Source: Saprospiraceae bacterium
Lineage (GTDB): Bacteria; Bacteroidota; Bacteroidia; Chitinophagales; Saprospiraceae
Assembly (NCBI GenBank): GCA_027008645.1
Contig: JALVEE010000126.1
Location: 1-33,222 of the forward strand
Reading direction: 5' to 3'
Length of the DNA stretch: 33,222 nucleotides
How positions within the stretch are numbered: position 1 is the stretch's first letter; each line of letters starts with the position of its first letter. The notes beneath the pieces were generated by a model, which was not told the DNA's origin, ran no database searches, and saw only the letters and a program-made list of their open reading frames with translations. Positions 325 through 3,711 of the stretch are shown here, piece by piece. The translations under genes were made by a program, and so were the position numbers.

Positions 325-357
325 AAAAAAGCCTCGCTTCCGCAAGGCTTTTTTTTT
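325..357. terminator. Bidirectional intrinsic terminator
   Basis: The arms AAAAAAGCCT (325-334) and AGGCTTTTTT (345-354) pair around a short loop, with A-runs and T-runs on both sides. It can end the transposase transcript on plus and the 131-aa membrane protein transcript on minus, whose stop codon is at 356-358. Confidence 0.85.
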
Positions 358-751
358 AAGTCATATTGTTTTTCTTAGGTTTAATTAAATGATATAAACA
401 ATATAAAGGGAAAAGGAAGAAGAGAAGGCTCATATATAGTATGAGCTTCACTTTTGCATTTGGTAATATTAAGGCATTATATGCAGAACTATACAATACT
501 GTTACTTTATCACCAATTTTATATTTTCCCTTGATGCAATCAACTTTTCCAATTTTCAAAATGTATTTTTCATTATTTAATAATACCTCAACACTGTTTG
601 AAGACCTTCCACAATTTGGAATATCTTTTATTGTTGCAATACTTTCAATCCCATATTCTTTGATATTGTAATCCCTGTATGACGCTTCAAAAAATTTAAT
701 TGAAAAAAAAGTAAACGTTATAAATAAGACTAAATAAATATTTTGAGACAT
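356..751 (-). CDS. Small two-pass membrane protein, candidate immunity protein of the RHS remnant
   Basis: A 131-residue protein with an N-terminal hydrophobic helix (about residues 4-20), a soluble middle region and a second hydrophobic helix (about 101-121), followed by a basic tail (KPKKNN). The middle reads like a small beta domain: IESIATIKDI, VEVLLNN, YKIGDKVTVLYSS. This recalls DUF3592-type membrane proteins, but the match is not certain. It starts 4 nt after the stop of the RHS-derived gene on the same strand, so the two were probably co-transcribed. In polymorphic toxin loci the gene directly after the toxin usually encodes the immunity protein. That role is inferred from position only. 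It has no recognisable catalytic motif. Confidence 0.6.
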   Translation of the reverse strand: MSQNIYLVLFITFTFFSIKFFEASYRDYNIKEYGIESIATIKDIPNCGRSSNSVEVLLNNEKYILKIGKVDCIKGKYKIGDKVTVLYSSAYNALILPNAKVKLILYMSLLFFLFPLYCLYHLIKPKKNNMT

Positions 752-755
752 AATT

Positions 756-1496
756 TTATTTTAAATCAATAATTGGAGTTATTACTCTTGTGTTATCCTG
801 AGCTATTTGAATTTTAGGAGTTACAATACTTCTATAATTACTTCCAGCATTTAATATTGATCTTACTTTATTTGATCCTGATTGTAATGCGTTTACAACA
901 GCGGTACTTTTAACCTGATTAGCTCCTCGAGATGCTACTATACTTGATGAAGCATCTTTTACATTTTGAGCTCGACCAACGCTTTTAGGATCATTTTTAG
1001 CAATACGCATTACTCGATCAAGTCTATTTTCCTTAACCTTTATATTTGCATCATTGAACACTTTCGATTGCCCTCCTATTCTACCCATCACCACGTCAGA
1101 AATAATTTTACCACCATTCAACTCTCCGCCAGAAATTACTTGCTTTCCCACAGACTCACCCGCATCTATTGAAGCTCCAATAGCAAGCTGTGCTCCCTTT
1201 CCTAATTTAGAAATAGATGAAATTCCTCCACTGAAAGCTCCTGCAACACCTGAAACAGCTGCACTTGCAAAATCTACTTCTTTTAGATTTTTGCCTTCAA
1301 AAACCATCTGTGTAGCAACGTCTAAGCCAAACCCAATCACAAACCCCCAAACACATTGTGGACATTTCCCATCAGGATCTTTCAGTTTTACCGGATTATT
1401 CCAAGTGTAGGCGTATGGCGATTTATCTACCTGATTAGGATGATCAGCCATTGGGTCAACGCTCAAAAATAGTCCTATCCTTGGATCATAATACTT
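756..1496 (-). pseudogene. RHS repeat-associated core end plus variable C-terminal (toxin-like) domain
   Basis: The frame is open from the AAG codon at 1496-1494 to the stop at 756-758. It begins KYYDPRIGLFLSVDPMADH and continues SPYAYTWNNPVKLKDPDGK, the signature end of the RHS core. After about 45 residues it switches to a variable domain: a Gly/Ala-rich hydrophobic stretch (VWGFVIGFGLDVATQMV, AAVSGVAGAFSGG), then a basic region (VKENRLDRVMRIAKNDPKSVGRAQ). Such tails are usually polymorphic toxin domains, but I recognise no catalytic motif here. The gene is cut from its upstream part by the inverted-repeat element at 1497-1660, so as it stands it is a remnant. An internal ATG at 1466 could still start a 236-aa product carrying the tail. 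The candidate immunity gene follows 4 nt downstream. Confidence 0.8.
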
Positions 1497-1660
1497 AGTG
1501 CACTGCGCAAAAAATATCTACACATATATACTTGTTCTTTTTTATTTATACTTCGTTGAAGAACCTCGCAAATAGCTAAGGCTATTCACGAGAACCTTCG
1601 CCTTGTCTAAATAAAAAATTACTGCGTCAATATGCCCATTTATTTCTTGCGCAGCGCACT
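1497..1660. mobile_element. 164-bp MITE-like element with terminal inverted repeats inserted in the RHS gene
   Basis: The ends are AGTGCACTGCGCAA (1497-1510) and TTGCGCAGCGCACT (1647-1660). They are inverted repeats with 13 of 14 matches. The interior has a hairpin centred near 1577 (AATAGC/GCTATT, extended by CTCG/CGAG) and encodes no protein. It splits the RHS core exactly between Gly-Ala (GCA, ending at base 1661 on minus) and Lys-Tyr-Tyr (AAG starting at 1496). Removing it restores the core YYGA-KYYDPRIG in frame. No clear target-site duplication is visible. No transposase is present, so it would have to be mobilised in trans. Confidence 0.65.
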
Positions 1661-1792
1661 TGCACCATAATAAAACAGTCCTGTCTCCTCATCCAATTCC
1701 TTTCCATTAAATTTATATGGAGTTTTATAATCCGGTGAAGCAGCGTTCTGCTCTGCCATAATCTCTCCATACGGCAAATATAGTAAAAATCT
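1640..1792 (-). pseudogene. RHS core fragment upstream of the inserted element
   Basis: The minus frame encodes YLPYGE, then TPYKFNGKELDEETGLFYYGA, the canonical RHS core just before the YYDPRIG motif. It then runs into the 164-bp element and stops at a TAA (1642-1640). Upstream the frame is closed by a TAG at 1795-1793, where the sequence turns abruptly into the repeat region. Only about 44 codons of RHS sequence survive here, so the large N-terminal RHS body has been lost. Together with 756-1496 this is the 3' end of one original RHS gene. Confidence 0.78.
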
Positions 1793-2298
1793 CTATTTTT
1801 ATCCTCACCCTAACCCTCTCCTTTTAAAAAAGTTCTTCCGCTTTTTTTAAATGAAAGTAAAAGGAGAGGGAAGAGGGCGCTTAGACAGTTGGAACAACTC
1901 TTGTAGGTATGTTATCATGATTGAACTATATAATCTTTCCAAAAGATTAATAGCTAATCCTAAAAGACCAAGCACCCTCACTCTCCCCTTCTCCTTCTAA
2001 GTGAAATTAAAGATAAAAGAAAAACTTAAAAAAAGGAGAAGGGGTCGGGGGTTGAGGATAAAAAGGAGAGAGGAAATAGGGCATTTGGTCGTTAGGAACA
2101 ACTCTTGTAGGTATGTTATCATGATTGAACTATATAATCTTTCCAAAAGATTAATAGCTAATCCTAAAAGACCAAGCACACTCACTCTCCCCTTCTCCTT
2201 TTAAGTGAAATTAAAGATAAAAGAAAAACTTAAAAAAAGGAGAAGGGGCTGGGGGTTGAGGATAAAAAGGAGAGTGAAAATATAATCTATACACGATA
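1793..2298. repeat. 204-bp tandem repeat array with internal hairpins
   Basis: The block starting GGAACAACTCTTGTAGG at 1891 recurs at 2095, exactly 204 bp later. The copies match almost base for base over about 180 bp (1891-2071 and 2095-2275); I see only a few substitutions. Each copy holds an inverted repeat, CCCCTTCTCCTT and AAGGAGAAGGGG, with inner TTAAGT/ACTTAA pairing. A shorter, diverged unit at 1800-1890 (CCCTCTCCTTTT and AAAAGGAGAGGG arms) looks like an older copy. Open frames across this region exist on both strands only because of the repeats; none looks coding. Confidence 0.85.
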
Positions 2299-2305
2299 TT
2301 GAACA

Positions 2306-2395
2306 ATACGGAATATCGAACATTGATTTACCCTGTGAAATATATTTTAATTTAGGATCTGCCTATTTCACGGGGACAAGGATTTGAGATTTTAC
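2306..2395. repeat. Dispersed repeat copy interrupted by a 49-bp palindromic insert
   Basis: TACGGAATATCGAACATTGA (2307-2326) and ACAAGGATTTGAGATTTTA (2376-2394) are contiguous in a second copy at 27484-27526 (reverse strand). Here they are separated by 2327-2375, whose ends CCCTGTGAAATA (2331-2342) and TATTTCACGGGG (2364-2375) are inverted repeats with 11 of 12 matches. The insert ends immediately before the sequence that overlaps the stop of the TolC-like gene. Confidence 0.6.
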
Positions 2396-3711
2396 TTTAT
2401 CACCTCCAAAATATTACCGCTCAATTGAAGTATGTTTAACTCCGCAATTTTTGCATTGTACTTCGCTTTTTTGTAATTCAATAGGCTGTTGAGCAAATTC
2501 AATTGGGCTTGTCTGAATTCTACTGATGTCACTCTACCGATATTGAATAAGTCTTGAGTCCTTTTGAAATTTATTTTTGATGTTTGTATGTTCTCAAGTT
2601 CGACCTGCATAACATATTTTTGGGTCTGATAAGTCTGATAATAGTTTCTCATTTCACTTATAATTTGTTGCCTTATCAACTCCTTCTGTACTTGAAGGTT
2701 GTCTATTTGTTTTAGTGCATTTTGATTTCTCACTTTGGTCGCACCTCCATCAAAAATATTCCAACTAAGGCTTAAACCTGCTGTAAGTCCTGTACCAAAT
2801 TGGTTTTTGATACTGTAATTTGTATCATTGAATCCTCCGTTTACTCCGTAATTTCCGACCGCACTAATAGTGGGTTTTAAACGTGCTTTATTCATTTTGA
2901 TGCTCAATTCGGATAGGGAAACATTTTTATCCAATATCAGCAAATCAGTATTTTTATTATCGATACCTGCAATCAATTCATCCAAACTAAAATCATCAAA
3001 TAACACAAGCGTATCTATATCAAAATCACTTTCCAAATCCCTGCCCATAATCAGATTAAGATTCCTTTTGGCATTGGTCAATTGTTGCTGAAAATTCAAT
3101 ATATTGACACTATCCCTGTTTAAATCCACTTCAGCATTTAGAATCTGCAATTTATTGGATTTTCCATATTCATTTCTCAATTTTGCTCTTCGCAATCTTT
3201 GTTTGGATATTTGCATTATTTCGTTTTGAACATACAACAGCTCTTGTAAATTGGCTATACCGTAATATGCCGAAAACAATTGAATAAGCGAATTTTCCAT
3301 AGATTGCCTTAATTCCAAATCAGCGATATTGAGACTTTCTTTTAATCGTTCCTTGGTATAACTTGTCTTTTTCCAATCAAACAATGTATAATTAATCCCA
3401 ATCGAACCATTGTAAGTTGCTGAATTAGCACCAAAAAAGGAGGTTGAAGGAAATTTGTCATTGTGATAATTGATATCGGAAGCTTTTAAACCGTAATTTA
3501 TTCCTGAACTAAGAAAAACTGTTGGCAATTCTCCTGTATTGTATTTACTGGTATTGTTCCTGGCGATTTCCAGATTATTTTTGGCTATTTTAATACCAAA
3601 ATTATTTTCTAAAGTGATTTTAGCTGCCTCCTGTTTTGTCAGTACCTGAGCATAAAATACATTAGTGGTTAGCAATAAGACTATCAATATTTTATATTTA
3701 GTGTAAGTCAT
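2392..3711 (-). CDS. TolC-like outer-membrane efflux protein
   Basis: A 439-residue outer-membrane efflux protein (OEP/TolC family), the exit duct of the tripartite RND pump encoded just upstream. Residues 1-21 form a signal peptide ending VFYA-QVL. Two long alpha-helical repeats follow. Family-like stretches are LELRQSMENSLIQLFSAYY, NRDSVNILNFQQQLTNAKRN, NLIMGRDLE, a mid-region GLSLSWNIFDGG strand, and IGRVTSVEFRQAQLNLLNS. The length of about 440 residues is normal for the family. Its ATG overlaps the stop of the RND gene by 14 nt, which indicates translational coupling. It is the last gene of the marR-adaptor-pump-TolC operon. Substrate cannot be told from the sequence. Confidence 0.9.
   Translation of the reverse strand: MTYTKYKILIVLLLTTNVFYAQVLTKQEAAKITLENNFGIKIAKNNLEIARNNTSKYNTGELPTVFLSSGINYGLKASDINYHNDKFPSTSFFGANSATYNGSIGINYTLFDWKKTSYTKERLKESLNIADLELRQSMENSLIQLFSAYYGIANLQELLYVQNEIMQISKQRLRRAKLRNEYGKSNKLQILNAEVDLNRDSVNILNFQQQLTNAKRNLNLIMGRDLESDFDIDTLVLFDDFSLDELIAGIDNKNTDLLILDKNVSLSELSIKMNKARLKPTISAVGNYGVNGGFNDTNYSIKNQFGTGLTAGLSLSWNIFDGGATKVRNQNALKQIDNLQVQKELIRQQIISEMRNYYQTYQTQKYVMQVELENIQTSKINFKRTQDLFNIGRVTSVEFRQAQLNLLNSLLNYKKAKYNAKIAELNILQLSGNILEVIK

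Follow-up and report, generated by a model that had tools for sequence, protein, structure and literature searches.

A MITE-Like Element in an RHS Remnant of Saprospiraceae and a Conserved Core Hairpin That Occurs between Different Ends

The 33,222-nucleotide stretch of Saprospiraceae DNA analyzed here, called the window below, carries a 164-bp palindromic sequence at 1497-1660. We consider it highly probable that this sequence is a non-autonomous MITE-like copy that entered the remnant of an RHS gene by chance insertion at a TA. The insertion probably took place in a common ancestor of two or more Saprospiraceae genomes, and a transposase of the DDE type probably effected the movement in trans. 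The inner ~99 nt of the element fold into a hairpin that shows covariation and has an internal loop in which eight bases are nearly invariant. An earlier note on this DNA had described a gene-free hairpin element of the MITE or REP type, possibly inserted site-specifically at a conserved RHS codon. The MITE-like character, the hairpin and the lack of a gene stand, whereas the REP-like cassette and the codon-specific insertion are not supported.

The Element and the RHS Remnant

The termini of the element, AGTGCACTGCGCAA (1497-1510) and TTGCGCAGCGCACT (1647-1660), are complementary at 13 of 14 positions, and at 18 of 20 when the comparison is extended. As had been described, these near-perfect inverted ends enclose 164 bp and split the RHS core between Gly-Ala and Lys-Tyr-Tyr. 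The element folds on itself from end to end, with a minimum free energy for DNA of -36.4 kcal/mol on the minus strand and -28.6 kcal/mol on the plus strand (z -7.3 and -5.4, respectively), and none of 200 shuffled sequences folded as well on either strand. The longest open stretch in its six frames is 38 codons. Thus, the internal hairpin and the absence of a gene are both borne out. A search of window positions 1200-2400 against Rfam at E ≤ 5 gave no match on the element. A known RNA was considered and rejected: 21 Rfam matches are found at 1791-2264, none of them on the element, and all are microRNA models under their cut-offs.

The two RHS pieces were searched against the NCBIfam model TIGR03696 each on its own and were never joined. 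The piece upstream of the element matches over 1661-1780 of the minus strand (model positions 1-35, E 2.5e-7), and its 31.1 bits are just under the cut-off of 32.5, whereas the downstream piece exceeds this cut-off with 35.8 bits. The model continues through the insertion point without any insert. The element length is no multiple of 3, and the RHS frame hits a stop at codon 7 of the element. Upstream of the element, the RHS frame extends for only 44 codons up to a stop, beyond which there are repeats. The RHS gene is a 5′-truncated remnant and was one already before the arrival of the element. The coordinates of these features are collected in Table 1.

Table 1. Features of the element and of the interrupted RHS remnant in the window
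Feature	Position	Strand	Basis
RHS fragment, downstream piece (KYYDP..., 246 aa)	756..1496	-	TIGR03696 positions 37-75, E 8.6e-9
RHS fragment, upstream piece (44 codons, stop just before, ends ...FYYGA)	1661..1792	-	TIGR03696 match and reading frame
MITE-like mobile element, palindromic, gene-free, 164 bp (subfamily 1 of the source genome, G000)	1497..1660	.	Multi-copy in G000, G002 and G004; alignment of n=14 copies; hairpin z -7.3/-5.4
Left terminal inverted repeat	1497..1516	+	18/20 complementary to right end
Right terminal inverted repeat	1641..1660	-	18/20 complementary to left end
TA at left junction (target signature)	1496..1497	.	T before and A after the element in 8/13 two-sided copies
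Conserved core hairpin (models R1/R2), common to elements with other ends	1530..1628	+	R2 E 3.6e-22 (window copy in training set); covariation
Internal loop, 5′ side, CGTTG, nearly invariant	1554..1558	+	C, G, T, T in 54, 56, 56, 55 of 56; last base G 38 / A 18
Internal loop, 3′ side, CGCCT	1599..1603	+	First base C 38 / T 18; G, C, C, T in 55, 54, 55, 56 of 56

The same RHS insertion is present in a second genome, G004. There the element is identical at 162 of 164 positions, and the flanks at 155 of 170 aligned bases with 15 additional gap columns. Comparing substitutions, 2/164 in the element vs. 15/170 in the flanks (Fisher p 0.002), the shared RHS element has changed less than its surroundings, and one locus cannot separate constraint from chance. 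Beside the RHS remnant of the window are two copies of a 204-bp direct repeat (1864-2067 and 2068-2271) that are 94% identical, together with related repeats, and in G004 these 204-bp repeats have an aligning counterpart next to the orthologous RHS copy. Directly 3′ of the C-terminal RHS piece lies an ORF of 131 aa (356-751, minus strand) that has no Pfam match above cut-off; from its position, we take it as a candidate for an immunity-type partner.

Copies and Target Marks of Subfamily 1

The source genome (4.09 Mb in 366 contigs) gave 19 blastn matches to the element. Six of them cover 161-164 of the 164 bases at 90-100% identity, and the remainder are fragments, contig-end pieces and self-matches of the palindrome. 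Several copies are thus present in one genome, and those elsewhere do not lie in RHS genes. When 60 genomes were searched, nine including the source genome had matches; full copies were found in G000, G002 and G004, all of one genus, and the same-genus genomes G001 and G003 gave no match. Exact 300-base stretches are common to G002/G004 and records of the Saprospiraceae MAGs JALVAD01/JALVEG01. Blastn with the 164 bp found no match in the phage and plasmid collections. In the copy alignment, subfamily 1 has a length of 164-165 bp.

Among the 13 aligned copies with both flanks, eight have T before and A after the element, four depart from this on one side, and one departs on both. The window copy and its ortholog are among the four; in the window copy the right junction (1660-1661) reads TT, so that one TA is missing there. 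Since TA is self-complementary, a TA duplication and an insertion between T and A are indistinguishable in subfamily 1. The statement that no target duplication is evident was therefore misleading: a TA signature is hidden in the palindrome, and the window copy keeps one side of it. Short and non-coding, with terminal inverted repeats and multiple dispersed copies, the element has these characteristics of a MITE. Mobility, which had been suggested for it, is supported by the many copies at unrelated sites, the conserved ends, the TA signature, and the 3-bp TNA duplications of a sister subfamily (see below).

Several decayed or altered copies were also observed. At five loci on three contigs of the source genome, members of another repeat family (GGACGCTAAGG...CGCCAAGAC... 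and similar) interrupt or adjoin decayed copies of the element. Three deletion derivatives have ends that meet or nearly do so, as if slippage had removed the hairpin interior: a 20-bp palindrome on contig C53 of the source genome (11213-11232) and palindromes of 45 and 64 bp at two Diaphorobacter loci. In locus L003, a copy (around 1501-1534) overlies the 3′ end of a secreted-type protein gene. Its sequence takes the place of the final codons, and the predicted protein therefore terminates in residues encoded by the element.

A Conserved Core Hairpin

Weak blastn matches in other genera proved to be elements of ~150-170 bp that have the same middle and different ends. When 15 cores from seven genera were aligned by MAFFT without structure, RNAalifold gave 23 pairs, 17 of them with double changes. 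After two outer pairs were added, 93.3% of the pair cells were paired and 18 of the 25 pairs had changed on both sides, compared with 42-48% of cells paired in controls with slid partners. In 56 sequences, 92.4% of cells are paired and double changes occur in 23 of 25 pairs (slid controls, 39-49%); this alignment was fitted to the model and hence leans to the structure. Within the loop, a T-G wobble is found in 55 of the 56 sequences and is never replaced by a Watson-Crick pair. On the opposite strand this wobble would be A-C. Therefore, its conservation suggests either that a single folded strand (DNA or RNA) is recognized or that duplex DNA has an asymmetric protein site there.

Two models were used to follow the core. 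R1, built from elements of the window's family (Saprospiraceae) and of the order-level relative G037, matched 95 of 150 sampled genomes and 74 of 112 genera of this family at E ≤ 0.001, and a number of genomes had at least 27 scored candidates in this survey. R2 at E ≤ 0.01 has 49 matches in the source genome. In a phylum-wide sample with stricter filters, R2 matched 11 of 296 genomes, of which five belong to the window's family (source genome included) and six lie outside it. A core pattern found 41 loci in the GTDB collection: 33 in Bacteroidota, six in Martelella (Alphaproteobacteria) and two in Diaphorobacter (Betaproteobacteria). R1 matched all six loci tested among these eight proteobacterial ones (E 1e-6 to 2e-14). 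Blastn against plasmids found full-length relatives in Cupriavidus basilensis and Diaphorobacter sp., and partial matches that span the core region in Ensifer, Mitsuaria, Paraburkholderia, and Eleftheria. The core pattern had 0 matches in IMG/VR. In Martelella, the six versions have a greater length (roughly 265 bp as read by eye) and an extra small hairpin in the left arm, and their ends are TACCAAG.

Ends and Target Marks around the Core

Five types of ends can be distinguished by eye around the core in the source genome alone: AGTGCnCTGCGCA (the window type), CTAGTGTCAAGTCAAG, TACCAAwTTAAC, TATACTCAAACCA, and CTAGTGC(G/T)CCA. They were read from 30 retrieved loci among the 49 R2 loci. In 35 of 45 elements the element's own two ends match beyond the 99th percentile of cross-element controls, and 10 of 45 fail this threshold. 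Left ends of different elements exceed the same threshold in 14 of 990 pairs. The elements were gathered by their core, so the search itself permits variety of ends; it does not explain why the ends still pair within each element.

The target marks differ as well. In subfamily 3 of the source genome, all six copies examined are flanked by direct TNA repeats (TCA, TTA, TGA, and TAA three times). TAA or TTA flanks occur at three distinct loci of G026, the pattern having missed a fourth (L040). Two of two copies in G019 have direct TAA repeats, and the TNA flanks agree by eye in six of 10 two-ended copies in G369. Paralogous sequences can be compared in G124: one of them (L172) has a single CTAG, and two filled copies (L173 and L177) have CTAG at both ends. 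Most of the 20 copies fetched from G124 lie inside one common longer repeat, so that they are non-independent insertions. In the same genome, elements with differing end types adjoin or nest at CTAG sites (L163, L172, L173, and L177), and the longer composite repeat carries many copies.

Subfamilies that have the core in common thus differ in their marks (TA vs. TNA). Hence, the core does not set the target, and it is combined with varying ends and a varying choice of target. The ends, along with their target preference, would then have been exchanged or diversified around a constant core.

Relation to Correia Elements and Other Known Repeats

Correia elements (CREE/NEMIS) of Neisseria were reported in 1988. 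Like the window element, they are short gene-free hairpins with TA ends. In model alignments read by eye, both have a similar core motif, TAC(3 nt)GTTG .. CGCC(TTG)TC, with the same positions unpaired. However, the ends of Correia elements are TATAGTGGATTAA, their outer stems are shorter, and they occur in another phylum. The window element, which ends in AGTGCnCTGCGCA, does not have the Correia terminus TATAG(T/C)GGATTAA. Correia elements are about 107 or 155 bp long according to excerpts of a 2007 review (PMC2229807), and the copies seen in this study are 104-107 or 153-154 bp, which differs from the 164-165 bp of subfamily 1.

A Correia query element had 100% matches in two N. gonorrhoeae records. 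R1, with no Neisseria in its training set, matched the Correia element with 27.4 bits (E 2.9e-4) as the sole match in 12.2 kb, and on a whole N. gonorrhoeae record of 2.17 Mb it gave four matches (E 7e-4 to 0.05), all of which are Correia elements. R2, built without Correia sequences, matched four Correia elements at E 1.1e-7 to 5.8e-6; three of these (L157-L159) were picked for a prior R1 match, while L154 was found by blastn and is independent. In six 50-kb stretches of N. gonorrhoeae (300 kb), R2 matched 0 of 12 Correia copies defined by their ends, and its only match there was a truncated Correia copy (E 0.0055). By eye, CGTTG is found in 11 and CGCCTTG in all 12 of these end-defined copies. 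The specificity of R1 and R2 thus looks good and their sensitivity poor, and on these matches a core common to the window element and Correia elements is likely, short of proven common descent. Two N. gonorrhoeae entries, NZ_CP119140.1 and NZ_CP119142.1, are filed as plasmids in PLSDB, yet they have the size of a chromosome (2.17 Mb).

The Correia core also resembles an element of Cupriavidus metallidurans CH34 that has other ends (blastn identity 85-87% over ~53 nt, E 3e-6 and 1e-5). Neither R1 nor R2 matched this CH34 copy, and R1 had no match on the whole record. No report of a core common to Correia and Bacteroidota elements was found in the literature covered, most subscription papers lying outside this coverage.

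Other families of repeats are similar in general form. RUP (with IS630-Spn1) and ERIC are likewise non-coding and multi-copy with inverted ends and TA, as described in excerpts of the review (PMC2229807), RUP being compared by this description. RUP differs in having a proposed partner IS according to the same excerpts (PMC2229807), whereas none was found for the window element. A relation to ERIC was considered because the middle looks alike by eye, but it was rejected, as one E. coli copy was unmatched by R1 and R2 at E ≤ 10. Elements of the IS5 family leave TA or TNA duplications depending on the group, and the same two marks are seen in the core-bearing subfamilies.

Search for the Mobilizing Enzyme

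In G000, G002, G004, G089, and Diaphorobacter, we found no transposon that combines matching ends with a transposase gene. G000, G002 and G004 are fragmented assemblies in which a repeated IS could have been split, and a partner could also reside in a different genome. With at most one mismatch allowed, G000 has 26 sites of the end pattern, G002 has 6, and G004 has 30. Many of these sites are single; others form pairs that have the size of the element or measure 20, 64, 245, or 350 bp. One pair of ends 3.1 kb apart encloses a gene for a secreted-type protein. Diaphorobacter has 18 sites, and only element-size pairs and deletion derivatives of 45-125 bp were seen among the loci read. Of the five sites of G089, four form pairs of 165 and 181 bp, and the fifth stands alone.

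Two transposase families, DDE_3 and DDE_Tnp_1, were searched for in the source genome. It has no IS630-type DDE_3 gene, unlike what would be expected for a MITE of the IS630 family. Its single DDE_Tnp_1 gene does not carry the ends of the window element, and no IS5-type transposase with these ends was found, in which the element differs from the IS5 family. IS481 and IS66 genes near two plasmid copies were examined as possible partners and rejected, as there is no second pair of these ends; the IS481 gene has one end match with four mismatches inside the gene. The enzyme would belong to the DDE class by the marks it leaves and would be absent from the source genome today.

Proposed Mechanism and Alternative Explanations

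Transposition in trans by DDE enzymes is established for MITEs in general, and the ends and the TA/TNA marks of the core-bearing elements fit it. In the proposed course of events, a common ancestor of two or more Saprospiraceae genomes would have acquired the element by chance insertion at a TA inside the RHS remnant. A DDE-type transposase acting in trans would read the ~20-bp ends and duplicate TA. The core may act in cis during movement, either by binding of a host factor or the transposase, or by pairing of the ends through extrusion of the hairpin, and the ends with their target preference may be swapped or diversified while the core stays. As core-sharing subfamilies differ in their target marks, the core would act in movement rather than in target choice. 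That the core is a cis module for movement seems to us only a little short of an even chance, and it is the role we favor; an RNA role ranks next and a mere shared relic third. Excerpts of the 2007 review leave the movement of Correia elements as a question for future work (PMC2229807), and another article cites work on NEMIS among papers on movement by end-reading transposases (PMC3733652), which speaks for ordinary end-matched movement.

The RNA role would be that the core hairpin works in mRNA processing, as an RNase III site or in stability, and serves neighboring genes with mobility being secondary, as was proposed for Correia/NEMIS elements in Neisseria. In RNA, the T-G wobble, which is kept on one strand along with a bulged T, would be a U-G pair, and excerpts of two articles describe the processing of Correia transcripts by RNase III (PMC10969869, PMC2229807). 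The lower divergence of the shared RHS copy relative to its flanks also agrees with such a role. However, the elements show no bias of orientation relative to tandem neighboring genes (17 co-directional and 13 anti-directional, p 0.58, in a small sample with simple ORF calls), Rfam has no match on the element, and the window copy is located in a broken gene. We therefore regard the RNA role as unlikely, though it deserves to be kept in mind.

The other two alternatives have far less in their favor. With their length and their conserved mismatch and bulge on a specific strand, the hairpins resemble the structure-read substrates of Y1 (HUH) transposases, which move REP/REPIN-like palindromes as single-stranded hairpins. 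Such insertions are free of duplications, whereas subfamily 3 has its direct TNA duplications in 6/6 copies (subfamily 1 is undecidable on this point). Moreover, the inverted repeats are at the very ends of the element, and in two single-contig genomes there is no strand bias against the local GC skew (11 of 20 in the same sense, a small sample). The REP-like cassette of the earlier note is unsupported, and movement by a Y1 enzyme is very improbable. As for a site-specific or programmed insert at this RHS codon, the boundary does fall exactly between codons, and the same insertion is found in G004. Nevertheless, in a simple motif scan of 37 copies, RHS motifs within 300 bp were found only for the window copy and its G004 ortholog. 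Fourteen of the scanned copies belong to subfamily 1 and come from three genomes, and 23 are further loci of the source genome that carry the core. As 35 of the 37 have no RHS motif, specificity for the RHS site is unsupported; the copy in G004 occupies the orthologous locus and shares the flanking repeats, and the RHS fragment was truncated already. We give this explanation hardly any credence, and the existence of a core-bearing clan with varied ends makes the RHS position look like chance. Chance insertion of a MITE-like copy moved by a DDE-type enzyme thus remains the preferred explanation.

Significance of the Core-Bearing Clan

One structured core is found in Bacteroidota, in Alpha- and Betaproteobacteria, and probably in Correia elements, in families that a comparison of ends would class as unrelated. 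The ends are the usual basis for defining MITEs and for searching for them, and MITEs usually evolve with constant ends and drifting interiors. We put forward, tentatively and with doubts outweighing our confidence, that a single hairpin module of ~70-100 nt, read via its internal loop (CGTT / GCCT, with the kept T-G wobble and the bulged T), may be the true unit of a trans-phylum MITE superfamily that includes the Correia elements of Neisseria. The ends and the TA/TNA marks would be swapped or diversified around this module, and a shared factor would bind the core and mobilize it with any ends. If this is true, the core-bearing clan reverses the usual evolution of MITEs, and this could explain why end comparisons have been of little help in finding what mobilizes Correia elements. 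The models R1 and R2 provide a search key for the whole clan, and the question of the mobilizing enzyme becomes testable by comparing what core-bearing genomes share beyond matching ends.
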